Shown here one piece after another: positions 4,835-10,492 of a stretch of DNA of 64,000 nucleotides. This stretch comes from Halobaculum sp. XH14 (GTDB lineage: Archaea > Halobacteriota > Halobacteria > Halobacteriales > Haloferacaceae). The position numbers and the translations under genes are program-made. The number at the start of each line of letters is the position of its first letter. The first letter of the stretch is position 1. The notes under the pieces are model-generated. The model saw nothing but the letters and a program-made list of their open reading frames with translations, did no database searches and was not told where the DNA came from. The stretch lies in contig NZ_CP134949.1 of assembly GCF_032116555.1 (NCBI RefSeq), positions 1,798,001 to 1,862,000 of the forward strand, in the 5' to 3' direction.

Positions 4835-7800
4835 CTACCGCCGCCGCCCCAGGAGCGGGGCGACCGCGACGAGCGCGATTCCGGCGACGAGCGGGAGTTC
4901 ACGGTCCCCGTCGAGCGACGTTCCGACCGCCGGTTCGCCGTCCGTCGGGTCCGGCGTGGCAGTTTCGACGGGCGATTCGGTCGGTTCCGGGGTCGGTTGC
5001 TCGGTCGGCGTCGCCGCCGGGGTCGGTGATTCGGTCGGGGTCGGCGCTTCAGTCGGCGTCGGCGAGTCGGTTGGTGTCGGTGACTCGGTCGCCGTCGGCG
5101 AGTCGGTCGCGGTCGGCGTTCCGGGGGCGGTCGTCGTGGTCCCGGTTCCCGCCGGGGTTTCGACGGCTTCGATCGTCACAGTCGCTTCGGACTGGCCGTT
5201 CACGGGGACGCTCGTCCCGTCCTCCGTCTCGGCGGTGACCGTGTAATCGCCGGGCTGAAGGTCCGCAACCGTCCCGGTCGCGCCGGGTCCGACGGTGACC
5301 GTTCGGAGCTCCCCGTCGCCGTCGGTGACGGTCACGAGGACGGCCACGTCGTTCGGGTTCTCGAGTTCGACCGTCCCGTTGACCACCGTCGCGTCGACGC
5401 TTTCGAGCGGCTCGGCCGCCTCGACGGTGTACTCGACCGTCGCGGCGGTCAGTTCCGCGCCGGTGTCGGCGTCGACCACCGCGACGTCGACCGTCGCGTT
5501 CGCCTCGATCGGCGGATCGAGCGTGATGTTGCCCGCGAACGACTCGTTTGCCGGCAGTGAGTCCGTCTCTCCGAGGACCCGTCCGCCCTCGCTCGCGGTG
5601 ACGACGTACTCGACCGTCGCGGTCGCGTTCCCCACGGTCAGCGCCGTCCCGTTCCCGACCTGATCGGCGACGACCAGCGTGGCGTTCGGTTCGGCTGCTG
5701 GCCGCGCGGTCGTTCCGAGCGGCGCGACGATTCCGGACGAGGTGACCGTCGCGGTCACGACGTTCGTCGATCCCTCGGACGCGTTTGGACCGGTCAGCGG
5801 CGTCCAGCCCGTCGCGTCCTGGTACTGCCAGAGCCGCAGGGACGCGGCCGTCAGGTTCGCCGTCTCCAGCGCGTCCTCCGAGTACTGCACCCGCAGCGCG
5901 ACGCTGGCGTCGTCGTCGGTCGCGTTCACGGCGACGTACTCGCCGACGTTCGTCGCGTTCTCGGGGTCCTCGGGCGGCGATTCGACGGCGTCCAGCGCGA
6001 CGTTCCGTCCCTCGTCGAAGCCGACCGTCGCGCTCGTGAGCGAGAGGTTCGAGACGCTCAGATCGCCCGACGAGATGGTCGCGGTCGAGAGGTCCGCCCC
6101 GCCGCTGTTCGAGACGCGGTTGTCGAGTAGCGCTCCCGCCACGGAGACGAGCGCGATCCCGTCGCCGTCGTTCCCCTCGATGACGTTCCCGGCGACCGTC
6201 AGGTCCGCGAGGTCCTGCCCGTCGATGCCGTGCTCGGCGTTGTCGCTCACGGTGTTGTCGCGGACGGTGACCCCGTCCGATTCGTCGAGGTCCAGGCCGT
6301 CGTCCGCGTTCCCGCTGATGTGATTGTCCGTGATCTCCAGGTCGTTCACGTCGTTGTTCGTGTCGATCCCGACTCCGGCGTTGTTCTCGATCAGGTTGCC
6401 CGTGACCTGGGCACCGGAGCCGCCCTCGAACAGCGTGAGTCCGCTCTCACCGTTCGACCGGATCACGTTGTCCGAGAGCACCGCGCTGGCCCCGAAATCC
6501 CGGAGAATGACGCCGTGGAACGCGTTCTCCCGGACGATCGAGTCTGAGACCGTCGCCCCGTTCGCGTCAGTGAGGTAGATGCCGTACTCGTTTTCGGACA
6601 CCGTGGCGTCGACGACGCTGACGCCGACGAGGTTGCCGGACTCGAACTCGGGTTGGCCGATTCCGGTCCCCCAGTCGGTCGCGACGACATCCCGGACGGT
6701 GACGTTCTCGGTGTCCTCGCCGTCCGACTGGCGGATCCACACGCCGACGGACCCGTTCGTTCCGACGCCGTCGAGCGCGTGACCGTCCCCGTCGAGGACG
6801 ACGTCGCTCGCGTTGATCGTGACGCAACTGGACGCCTCGCTGTCGGTCACGTTCGCCGTCAGCACGTAGCGACCCGGCTCGTCGATCACGCCACACGCGT
6901 CGAGTTCGGTGACGCCGGCCGCCGTTTCGTTCGGCGTCTCGACACCGTCCGTCTCGTTCGCGGCGGTCTCGTTATCGGCCGTCTCGGTGCCGAGGACGGT
7001 CACGAACGCCTCGTCCGTGACCGGCTCGCCGGCGTCGAGGTACGGGCCGTCGGCCGAATCGTTCGTCACCGGAACGTCGAGCGTCCCGTTCCCGTCGGCG
7101 TCCCGATACGCGACGGCGAGCAGCGAGCGATTCTCGGTGAGCGGATCCGTCAGTTCGACGCTGACGTTCCCGCTCGTCCCGGCGTCGAGGTACGCGGAGA
7201 CGCCGATGATGAGCCCTGCTCCGTCGTCGCCACCGGTCGCGTCACGGATGGCGACGAACCCGCCGTCGGGGAGGGTCACCGAGTCCACGGTGACGGCCGT
7301 GCCGTTCGTCGTCTGGTTCCCGAACGAGACGGTCGCGTTCGGCTCCGCGTCGGTGGTCTCCGCGACCGTGTAGGAAATCGTCTCGGTGGCCAGTTCCGAG
7401 CCGTTCCCCGCGTCGACGACCGCCACCGTGAGCGTCGCGTTCCCCCCGAGCGGGGGGTCGAGGACCAGCGGCCCGGCGAACGTCCCGTTCGCCGCCACGG
7501 GTTCGGACTCGTTCAGCACGGTCCCGTTCCGATCGACCGTCACGGCGAACTCGGTCGTCGCCGACGCGTTCTCGACGGTGAGCGTCGTCCCGTCGTCCGT
7601 CTGGTTTCCGACCTCGAGCGATGCGTCGGCGGTCGCGTCCGTCGGCCCGTCGTCGGTCACGTTTTGGGTCTCGTTCGTGTCCGGCCCGAGCAACTCGACC
7701 TGCTCGAACACGGGCAGTTCGTCCTCGAGGTACGGCGCGTCGACCTCGCCGCCGCTGTCGACGTACTCGAACTCGCCGTCCCCGTCCGTGTCGCGGTACG

Positions 7801-10492
7801 CGACCGCGAACACGGTCGTCGATCCGTTCACCGACTCGTTCAACTCGACGGTGAGTTCACCGTCCGCTCCGGGCTCGACGTACTCGGAGACGCCGAGGAT
7901 TCCGTCCCTGAGGGTTCCCGCCTCGACGTCCTCGGGCGAGAACTCGTCCGAGTGGATGGCGACGAAGCCGCCGGCCGAGAGGGTCGCGTCGTCGACGACG
8001 ACCGTGTCGGCGGCGGGCTGGTCGGAGACGTTCAGTCTCGCGGTGAGGTTCGCCTGATCGATCGATATCTCCGCGTCGTCGCCGGCGGGCGCGCCGTCCT
8101 CGACGTAGGGTTCGTCAGCGTCGCCCGCGGACTCGACGTACGTGAACTCCTCGTCCCCGTCGGTGTCGAAGTGCGGGACCGCAGAGAGCGTTCGGTCCGC
8201 CGTCAGCGCGGACTCGTCGAACTCCCGTCCCGCGACGTCGAACAGTTCGACGGTGACGTTGTCGTGGGTTCCCGCCTCCAGGTACGACGAGACGCCGACG
8301 ACGTCGAGCGGATCGCTCTCGTCGAGTTCGTCGTTGCGGACCGCGACGAACCCGCCCTCCGGGAGCGTCACGGAGTCGATCGTGACCGTCGTCCCGTCGG
8401 AGTCCTGATCCTCGAAGGAGACGTCCGCCTCGAACTCGTCCTCGGGGGCGGAGGCGTTGCTGCTCGCGCTTTCGGCGTTCCGCACGATCTGACTCACGTC
8501 GGTGATCCCCTCCGATGCCGCCGACTGGGCGGCGCCGGCCGATTCGAGCCAGCCGAGATACTGCGACTGCCGGATCGTGAGCTCCCCCGACTGGCGGAGG
8601 ATGCCGCGACAGGCACCCTCGGCGGCGCCCCGGATCTGGACCGCGCTCGCGGTCACGCTCTGTGAAAGTGCACCCGAGGCCGCGCTCCGGGTCACGACCT
8701 GGATCTGCACGATCGTCACCTGCTGTATCTGGACCCCGCCGGCCGCCGCCCCGAGCGCGGCCGACTGTATCTGCTCGACCGAAACTTGCGTGTACTGGAC
8801 GAGCGCGCCGCGTGCCGCGCCGCTCGCGGCCGCCTGTATCTGCACGATCGACACCCGTTGTACCTGCGTCAGCGAGCCTTCGGCCGCGCCGCTCGCTGCG
8901 GCCTGCAGTTGCTCGACCGTGACCTCGGTTCGCTGGGACGCGCTCGTCGCGGCGCCCGATGCCGCGCCGGACGCCGCCCGCTGGACCTGTTCGACGGTGA
9001 CGCGCTGGACCTGCCGGAGCGCCCCGTCGGCCGCGCCGCTCGCGATGGACTGGGTCTGCTCGACGGTGATCCGCGTCCGTTGGGCCAGCGCACCCTCGGC
9101 CGCGCCGTGGGCCGCGTACTGGACCAGTTCCACGTCGACGGACTGGCGCTGAACAGCACGCCCGACCGCACCGTCCGCGGCACCGAACGCCGCGGCCTGT
9201 GCCTGCTTGAGTTCGACCGACTGCCGCTGGGCGAGGACGCCCGCGGAGGCGCCCCGAGCCGCGTACTGCACCTGCTCGACGGTGGCCGACTGGGCCTGCT
9301 GGAGCGCGCCGGTCGCGGCACCGCTGGCGGCCCGCTGAACCTGCCGCACGTCGGTGCGCTGGGTCGACACCGCACCGCGTGCCGCGCCGCGTGCAGCGAA
9401 CTGCAGTTGCTCGACGGAGGCGGACTGGTACTGTTCGAGCGCGCCGCCCGCAGCGCCCCTGGCGGCGCGCTGTATCTGCGTGACGCTCACCGCCTGTGCC
9501 TGCGTGAGCGCGCCGTGTGCGGCACCCCTGGCGGCCGACTGGACCTGCTCGACGTCGACCACCTGCCGCCGGGCGGCCCGCTCGCAGGCACCCCTGGCGG
9601 CACCTTCGGCGGCGATCTGGATCTGCTCGACGGTCACCCGCTGGGCCTGGAACAGCGCGCCGGAGGCTCCGCCCATCGCGGCCGACTGGATCTGTTCGAC
9701 GGTGACGCTCTGTCGCTGGCTCACCGCGCCCTTGAGCGCCCCCCGCGCCCCGCCGATGGCCGCGACCTGAACCTGCTTGAGGTCGGTTTCCTCGTGGCGG
9801 TCGAGCGCGCCGTGGGCACCGCCGTAGGCGGCGGCCTGGAGCTGCTCGACGGTCACCTGCTGGCGCTGGGAGATCGCGCCGTAGGCCGCGCCCTGTGCGG
9901 CCTCCTGGATCTGTCCGACGTCGGTGACCTGTTTCTGCGCCGCGCTTGCGGCCGCGCCGGACGCTGCACCGGCGGCCACGCTCTGCAGTTGCGCGGCCGT
10001 CACCTGCTGGCGCTGGGCCAGCGAGCCGTGTGCCGCGCCGTAGGCGGCGCTCCGGACCTGCGTGGCGGTCGCGTCCTGCTGCTGTTCGAGCGCCCCGCGC
10101 ACGCTCCCGCCGACCACGGCCTGGATCTGCGTGGTCTCGGCCGTCTGTGCCTGCAAGAACGCCCCGTGTGCGGCGCCGGTCGCGGCGCTTCGGATCCGAT
10201 CGGGGTTCGCGTCCGGATGCGCGGCGGCGGCCTCCGCGGCGGCCTCCGCGGCAGCATCGACCGCCGACTGGGAGACGTTTGCCCCGCGTTCGCGTGCCAG
10301 TTCGGCTCCGCGTTCGACGCCGGCAGTCGCCGCGTCCTGCTGTTGCACTGATGGCGCCCCGGCGCCGGTTCCCGCCCCGCCGGCCACCGCGACCGATTCG
10401 ACGGAGCCGACCGCGAGCACCGTGAGAAGCGCGACGCCGACGAGAACGGCCACGAAGCGGGGAGCCCCCGCGAAATAATCGTTGCTAGCCAT
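4835..10492 (-). CDS. Giant secreted repeat protein: 23-residue repeats, DUF7282-type domains, beta-helix, membrane anchor
   Basis: A 1,885-residue surface protein. Residues 12-36 form a signal peptide. An Ala-rich segment (73-92) precedes 24 tandem repeats at 99-667, mostly 23 residues, with consensus Q-I-Q-x-A-A-x-G-A-A-x-G-A-L then x-Q-x-Q-x-V-T-V-E. Next come two DUF7282-type domains (about 688-800 and 806-930; cores TLPEGGFVAVRN and TLSAGGFVAIHS), an Ig-like domain (about 960-1045), a third DUF7282-type domain (about 1050-1165), a NosD/pectate-lyase-like right-handed beta-helix (about 1197-1490; repeated SDNVIRSNGESGLTL-type coils), a second Ig-like domain (about 1590-1680), a Thr/Pro-rich stalk (about 1776-1850) and a C-terminal hydrophobic helix ending GRRR. 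Many NxT/S sites suggest N-glycosylation. The tail resembles an archaeosortase signal but lacks its PGF motif. Adhesion or a cell-surface scaffold is inferred; no catalytic residues were recognised. Confidence 0.85.
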   Translation of the reverse strand: MASNDYFAGAPRFVAVLVGVALLTVLAVGSVESVAVAGGAGTGAGAPSVQQQDAATAGVERGAELARERGANVSQSAVDAAAEAAAEAAAAHPDANPDRIRSAATGAAHGAFLQAQTAETTQIQAVVGGSVRGALEQQQDATATQVRSAAYGAAHGSLAQRQQVTAAQLQSVAAGAASGAAASAAQKQVTDVGQIQEAAQGAAYGAISQRQQVTVEQLQAAAYGGAHGALDRHEETDLKQVQVAAIGGARGALKGAVSQRQSVTVEQIQSAAMGGASGALFQAQRVTVEQIQIAAEGAARGACERAARRQVVDVEQVQSAARGAAHGALTQAQAVSVTQIQRAARGAAGGALEQYQSASVEQLQFAARGAARGAVSTQRTDVRQVQRAASGAATGALQQAQSATVEQVQYAARGASAGVLAQRQSVELKQAQAAAFGAADGAVGRAVQRQSVDVELVQYAAHGAAEGALAQRTRITVEQTQSIASGAADGALRQVQRVTVEQVQRAASGAASGAATSASQRTEVTVEQLQAAASGAAEGSLTQVQRVSIVQIQAAASGAARGALVQYTQVSVEQIQSAALGAAAGGVQIQQVTIVQIQVVTRSAASGALSQSVTASAVQIRGAAEGACRGILRQSGELTIRQSQYLGWLESAGAAQSAASEGITDVSQIVRNAESASSNASAPEDEFEADVSFEDQDSDGTTVTIDSVTLPEGGFVAVRNDELDESDPLDVVGVSSYLEAGTHDNVTVELFDVAGREFDESALTADRTLSAVPHFDTDGDEEFTYVESAGDADEPYVEDGAPAGDDAEISIDQANLTARLNVSDQPAADTVVVDDATLSAGGFVAIHSDEFSPEDVEAGTLRDGILGVSEYVEPGADGELTVELNESVNGSTTVFAVAYRDTDGDGEFEYVDSGGEVDAPYLEDELPVFEQVELLGPDTNETQNVTDDGPTDATADASLEVGNQTDDGTTLTVENASATTEFAVTVDRNGTVLNESEPVAANGTFAGPLVLDPPLGGNATLTVAVVDAGNGSELATETISYTVAETTDAEPNATVSFGNQTTNGTAVTVDSVTLPDGGFVAIRDATGGDDGAGLIIGVSAYLDAGTSGNVSVELTDPLTENRSLLAVAYRDADGNGTLDVPVTNDSADGPYLDAGEPVTDEAFVTVLGTETADNETAANETDGVETPNETAAGVTELDACGVIDEPGRYVLTANVTDSEASSCVTINASDVVLDGDGHALDGVGTNGSVGVWIRQSDGEDTENVTVRDVVATDWGTGIGQPEFESGNLVGVSVVDATVSENEYGIYLTDANGATVSDSIVRENAFHGVILRDFGASAVLSDNVIRSNGESGLTLFEGGSGAQVTGNLIENNAGVGIDTNNDVNDLEITDNHISGNADDGLDLDESDGVTVRDNTVSDNAEHGIDGQDLADLTVAGNVIEGNDGDGIALVSVAGALLDNRVSNSGGADLSTATISSGDLSVSNLSLTSATVGFDEGRNVALDAVESPPEDPENATNVGEYVAVNATDDDASVALRVQYSEDALETANLTAASLRLWQYQDATGWTPLTGPNASEGSTNVVTATVTSSGIVAPLGTTARPAAEPNATLVVADQVGNGTALTVGNATATVEYVVTASEGGRVLGETDSLPANESFAGNITLDPPIEANATVDVAVVDADTGAELTAATVEYTVEAAEPLESVDATVVNGTVELENPNDVAVLVTVTDGDGELRTVTVGPGATGTVADLQPGDYTVTAETEDGTSVPVNGQSEATVTIEAVETPAGTGTTTTAPGTPTATDSPTATESPTPTDSPTPTEAPTPTESPTPAATPTEQPTPEPTESPVETATPDPTDGEPAVGTSLDGDRELPLVAGIALVAVAPLLGRRR
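4945..5165 (-). repeat. Thr/Pro-rich stalk minisatellite in the giant gene
   Basis: A low-complexity tract encodes runs of PT(E/D)SPTPT. At DNA level it is an irregular 12-18-bp tandem array built from GTCGG(C/T)G(A/T)(G/T)TCGGT-like units. Such Thr/Pro stalks are usually O-glycosylated and hold the extracellular part away from the membrane. The array is likely to vary in length between strains by slippage. Confidence 0.7.
8492..10198 (-). repeat. 24 protein-level tandem repeats of about 23 codons
   Basis: This section of the giant gene encodes residues 99-667. Seventeen... of the 24 units are judged from the translation: sixteen units have 23 residues, five have 26, one has 27 and two have 22. 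Every long unit gains its 3-4 extra residues at the same place, after the G-A-x that follows the GxxxG element (ASA, KGAV, ERA, GRA, TSA), except the degenerate last unit. Each unit keeps a Q-[IVL]-Q start, a small-residue GxxxG and a V-T/D-V-E end. Units diverge at the DNA level, so the array is old rather than a recent slippage product. Confidence 0.85.

Follow-up and report, generated by a model that had tools for sequence, protein, structure and literature searches.

Alpha-solenoids of the HEAT, ARM and TPR class consist of tandem helices in which successive helices run antiparallel and next-but-one helices parallel, and each of their repeats contributes two or three distinct helices. Beta-solenoid adhesins of the filamentous haemagglutinin, YadA and curlin types are long surface proteins made of short regular repeats. 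The gene examined here lies in a window of 64,000 nucleotides (the whole stretch of DNA analysed) from Halobaculum sp. XH14, is present as a single copy in that genome and encodes an exported protein that resembles the former in the predicted arrangement of its repeat helices and the latter in its short repeats and its length. From the N-terminus, the sequence gives the order repeat rod, DUF7282, beta-helix, Thr/Pro stalk and C-terminal anchor (Table 1). The DUF7282 match (303 bits against a cut-off of 27) covers three to four stretches and identifies the protein as an exported DUF7282 surface protein in its downstream part only. DUF7282 is also found in two other genes of the source genome (G000:C1, about 914 kb and 2665 kb), and the DNA repeat array encoding the stalk may differ in length from strain to strain.

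Table 1. Features of the repeat surface protein gene, in window positions, with residues numbered in the encoded protein
Feature	Residues	Position	Strand	Basis
Repeat surface protein gene, 1885 codons		4835..10492	minus	ORF
N-terminal hydrophobic segment, Sec-type signal or anchor	1-38	10379..10492	minus	Kyte-Doolittle 2.77 over 17 residues
N-terminal cap, two predicted helices like degenerate units	about 49-94	10211..10348	minus	AlphaFold2, cap sequences
23 tandem units	95-637	8582..10210	minus	iterated profile, autocorrelation
Degenerate 24th unit and C-terminal cap	638-688	8430..8581	minus	sequence; orthologue with 24 scored units
DUF7282 (PF23951) domain 1		8066..8428	minus	Pfam match
DUF7282 domain 2		7697..8041	minus	Pfam match
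DUF7282 domain 3		6998..7336	minus	Pfam match
NosD/Beta_helix right-handed parallel beta-helix domain	1246-1466	6095..6757	minus	profile match
Thr/Pro/Ser/Glu-rich stalk with 18-bp DNA repeats		4987..5119	minus	Tandem Repeats Finder and sequence
C-terminal hydrophobic anchor LPLVAGIALVAVAPLLGRRR, without PGF motif		4838..4897	minus	hydropathy, sequence

The repeat unit has the consensus V-[TSND]-V-x-Q-[IVL]-Q-x-A-A-x-G-A-A-x-G-A-L-x-Q-x-Q-x. Starting from five seed units, an iterated position-specific profile finds 23 clear units of 22.6-48.3 bits each, against a top score of 9.8 bits in 200 shuffles of the whole protein. Identity autocorrelation is maximal at lag 23 (0.345; 1000 shuffles reach at most 0.178) and almost as strong at lag 72 (23+23+26; 0.339), because the spacings mix 23s and 26s. 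The array, with its GxxxG element, is thus found in the minus-strand ORF where an earlier sequence-only reading had placed it, at residues 99-667 of the 1885-residue protein. The 24 units counted there are a fair number, since a degenerate 24th unit follows the 23rd directly and in frame (residues 638 to about 660) and the same-genus orthologue scores 24. The 23-residue unit holds as the commonest length, but the length is not constant (spacings of 22, 23, 26 and 27 residues). To those boundaries we add the two helical cap segments that precede the array; this cap is conserved across the family and is helical in both AlphaFold2 models described below (pLDDT about 65-83). Adjacent units are 48-78% identical in DNA, and Tandem Repeats Finder picks up just two pieces of the array; the unit copies are old.

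The repeat had been described as fitting no known structural repeat, and our searches of Pfam, NCBIfam, PHROGs and PDB sequences likewise gave nothing above noise, although profile libraries can miss relatives at the level of the fold. The two records examined are annotated as hypothetical proteins, and our literature search returned no paper on the repeat or on DUF7282. The repeat is a new family, which its predicted fold places within the alpha-solenoid kind. Small Lys/Glu-rich helical proteins from outside the class (G472, G488 and G626) were considered as homologues and rejected, as profile-profile comparison did not support them. Two small proteins of this kind from the same phylum (f16; L163, 1371-1880, and L164, 2051-2545) give weak matches to the family profile (E about 1e-4) and, below the cut-off, resemble DUF6781 and apolipoprotein. 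They share weakly similar V-T-x-E-x-V-x-x-A-A-x-G-A-x-x-G-A-x helices with the repeat but are charged, Lys/Glu-rich and 165-170 residues long, and their profile-profile probability is 1%, so we claim no homology with them.

A search for the repeat across haloarchaeal genomes, as the sequence-only reading had suggested, detected relatives in 110 of 391 genomes sampled evenly from the class and in 36 of 86 genera. Five further loci, all in Natrialbaceae, came from a scan of a bacterial and archaeal species collection that reaches close relatives only; bacteria were sampled by exact peptide patterns only. Relatives were absent from the phages and viral contigs scanned and from nearly all plasmids scanned. 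The fetched loci yielded 111 non-redundant proteins, which together contain 1632 units (1449 distinct) at 9-24 units per member. Two thirds of the members have 15 units with a common spacing pattern, which indicates a stable architecture rather than a slipping array. Most units of the window protein match those of its same-genus orthologue one to one and in order, and a dN/dS of about 0.28 between the two (dN 0.21, dS 0.76) indicates purifying selection.

A diverged paralogue in a genome of the same genus (G002; L039, 5283-9629) has about 22 units, mostly of 26 residues, with the consensus V-x-V-[SN]-P-E-I-V-Q-N-A-A-x-G-A-A-x-G-[AS]-I. Its units begin S-P-E-I-V-Q, with S-P-E marking the helix start, and it ends with an ASH/choice-of-anchor D domain. 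The Halobaculum marinum plasmid NZ_CP119991.1 (L161, L166 and L167) carries two copies of the repeat gene, at about 12-20 kb and 291-297 kb; both adjoin an identical rtcA protein, which suggests a duplicated segment, and one copy is split by two in-frame TGA codons and annotated as two ORFs.

The secreted surface setting proposed earlier is supported by the export signals and the partner domains. Signals are of the Sec type, or Tat-like in 11 of 62 complete members, and the downstream partner domains vary (DUF7282, NosD/Beta_helix, bacterial TSP3 repeats, CARDB, ASH/choice-of-anchor D, CAP) and are extracellular domains. Hydropathy predicts a C-terminal anchor in just 10 of the 62 complete members; many may therefore be secreted or attached in another way. 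In one subgroup (L004, L006, L007 and L008), a Tat-like signal replaces the Sec signal and an acidic Glu/Pro/Asp tail replaces the anchor, so these proteins are probably secreted. Comparison of neighbourhoods across groups revealed no universal partner gene, synteny being local and within groups, and the window gene is not part of a conserved operon.

Across the 1449 distinct units, position 2 is T, S, N or D in about 85%, and proline is found chiefly at positions 3-4, with none at positions 5-16. V1 and I6 stand at the positions that the hydrophobic staple of a helix N-cap would take. The hydrophobic moment of columns 3-20 has its maximum at 95 degrees, the entropy moment being ambiguous (165 and 95 degrees). 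On a helical wheel, the five helix columns that vary most (4, 8, 11, 15 and 19) are contiguous, for which a hand count gives a chance of 16/4368 = 0.004, and assignment of helix faces from coupling partners was not significant. Coevolution was computed over 1188 adjacent unit pairs. The top within-unit couplings are 15-19, 3-7, 8-11, 4-8 and 11-15, and mean coupling across columns 4-19 is greatest at a separation of 4; together with the 95-degree moment, these i+3/i+4 couplings point to helices in tandem. Between units n and n+1 there is an antiparallel band (p<0.0002; 0 of 5000 column permutations reach its value), and between units n and n+2 a parallel band (p<0.0002) and not an antiparallel one; at offset 3 a weak parallel signal is all that is left, and at offset 4 there is none. 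Antiparallel coupling is best at a sum of 27; this sets the apex of the hairpin at residue 2, the same residue that the sequence independently marks as the N-cap. Because an initial inspection of these data guided the choice of bands, these p-values are optimistic; a better guard is a split of the family into two halves, and both the antiparallel n/n+1 and the parallel n/n+2 bands are seen again when the 15-unit type and the remaining members are analysed separately. Coupling analysis is difficult on repeats, and its signals here are modest.

From these patterns we infer that each unit would form one helix of about 17 residues, with an N-cap at [TSND]2 and a body at positions 3-19, and end in a short linker, Q-x-Q-x, in extended form. 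Neighbouring helices would be antiparallel and helix n would lie parallel on helix n+2, giving a two-layer hairpin array in which every helix is near-identical in sequence and in which the Ala/Gly positions A9, A10, G12, A13, G16 and A17 could permit very close helix packing. We regard this antiparallel fold with one helix per repeat as likely. The unit had earlier been read as a helix plus a strand; the helix agrees with our analysis, but residues 20-23 would be extended as a loop between helices and not as a stacked strand. The alternative then offered, a helical filament, is consistent with our results.

Among complete members with a long stretch outside the repeat, the repeat is less negative than that stretch in every case (61 of 61). 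Mean net charge per residue is −0.021 in the repeat versus −0.244 in the rest, and acidic residues make up 7.8% versus 26.3%; in the window protein the array carries +0.013 charges per residue and the rest −0.163. There are zero N-glycosylation sequons in the window-protein array versus 42 elsewhere in the protein. Glycosylation of the hairpin apex was considered for the family and dropped: 109 of 134 unit sequons start at position 2, yet Ser at position 2 favours S/T at position 4 equally, so the bias does not demonstrate selection for sequons.

The neutrality of an Ala/Gly/Gln rod in brine suggests that its surfaces are meant for contact, other rods included. As the array precedes the other domains and the C-terminal anchor in the source species, it should be exposed at a distance from the membrane; the rod would form the distal, N-terminal end of the exported protein and would expose a narrow stripe (positions 4, 8, 11, 15 and 19) with little net charge. 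Its likeliest role would be adhesion or self-association, between cells, between cell and matrix or side by side among rods in brine; the adhesin or surface fibre of the sequence-only reading is likewise putative. If the fold is as predicted, an adhesive role is reasonably probable, and we put the chance of the joint reading, a solenoid built wholly of helices, one to each repeat, in a likely adhesive or self-associating role, at about even. The main rival on role takes the same helical fold to be a passive spacer or matrix scaffold that merely displays the downstream domains. The spread in repeat number among members, their differing partner domains and the absence of a conserved neighbour gene would all suit a spacer, but in the members examined the repeat is N-terminal to the other domains, an odd place for a spacer, and it is neutral where the rest is acidic. 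We judge this rival unlikely, though far from negligible.

Readings that would change the fold itself fare less well. In a beta-solenoid, the 23-residue unit would be one beta-helix coil, with a V-T-V-E-Q-I-Q strand and GAAxGA turns, and the domain an adhesive beta-rod. AlphaFold2 draws such a structure at low confidence: for residues 44-679 with five relatives (mean pLDDT 48), the first 72 residues form three helices, the last of which is unit 1 (67-83 over the first 60 residues), and the rest a beta-solenoid in which the best 10-residue array blocks reach 60-72. For the smallest complete relative (L006; mean pLDDT 38), the degenerate end units are helical and the centre has a few strands of low confidence. 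The AlphaFold modelling suggested earlier thus gave helical end segments but no confident model of the central units, and AlphaFold2 is known to over-predict, and is reported to invent, beta-solenoids for repeat sequences (PMC11795689), so the low-confidence beta model weighs little. A pseudo-deep alignment made from shifted segments of the same proteins was dropped, as overlapping segments align to themselves. Couplings at separation 2 at positions 19-4 of the unit would also fit strands, but positions 4-19 are dominated by helix-spaced couplings, and a beta-solenoid needs equal positions of adjacent coils to couple in register, for which the parallel n/n+1 band is not significant (p=0.37) while the antiparallel band is present. 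Overall, a beta-solenoid seems doubtful.

The same lack of in-register coupling between n and n+1, with antiparallel coupling in its place, counts against the helix-strand solenoid of stacked coils proposed in the sequence-only reading. An LRR-like form, with one strand and one helix per unit and all coils parallel, would account for the helical middle and for the extended linker with its separation-2 coupling, but Pfam gives no LRR match and adjacent units do not couple in parallel; we consider it quite improbable. Membrane-inserting or pore-forming glycine-zipper repeats, suggested by the GxxxG element and by matches of single members to Gly-zipper_YMGG and Bacteriocin_IIc below threshold, are scarcely credible, as hydropathy over 19 residues peaks at just 1.17 in the array (mean −0.08), short of a membrane span, and each unit conserves Gln and Arg/Glu/Thr.

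If the solenoid with one helix per repeat is correct, a further and rather speculative idea is that the rod is a straight two-faced ribbon and that in saturated brine ribbons lie face against face and so build helical fibres outside the cell, since every helix in both layers would have nearly one neutral Ala/Gly/Gln sequence. Such ribbons would be matrix-building material that evades the acidic surface rule of halophilic proteins. The neutral repeat inside strongly acidic brine proteins in any case departs, in a way that can be tested, from what is usual in halophilic adaptation, and this unnamed family, found in about a quarter of the sampled haloarchaea, is a concrete candidate for how haloarchaeal cells stick together.

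Compared with the beta-solenoid adhesins, the repeat differs in its helix-spaced couplings, in having no coil-to-coil coupling in register and in matching none of them in Pfam. Designed helical repeat proteins such as 5cwd share its predicted tandem helices, and L163 matches 5cwd at E 1e-3, but the window domain itself has no PDB match. The repeat does not belong to the HEAT, ARM or TPR families, with no Pfam match and one predicted helix per unit rather than two or three; it also differs from these alpha-solenoids in being rich in Ala, Gly and Gln with a GxxxG element and in being extracellular in haloarchaea. The order that defines alpha-solenoids, with neighbours antiparallel and next-but-one units parallel, is nevertheless found in both halves of the family, and if each repeat does form a single helix, the domain would be an unusually simple alpha-solenoid, built from a single short unit and useful in protein design.
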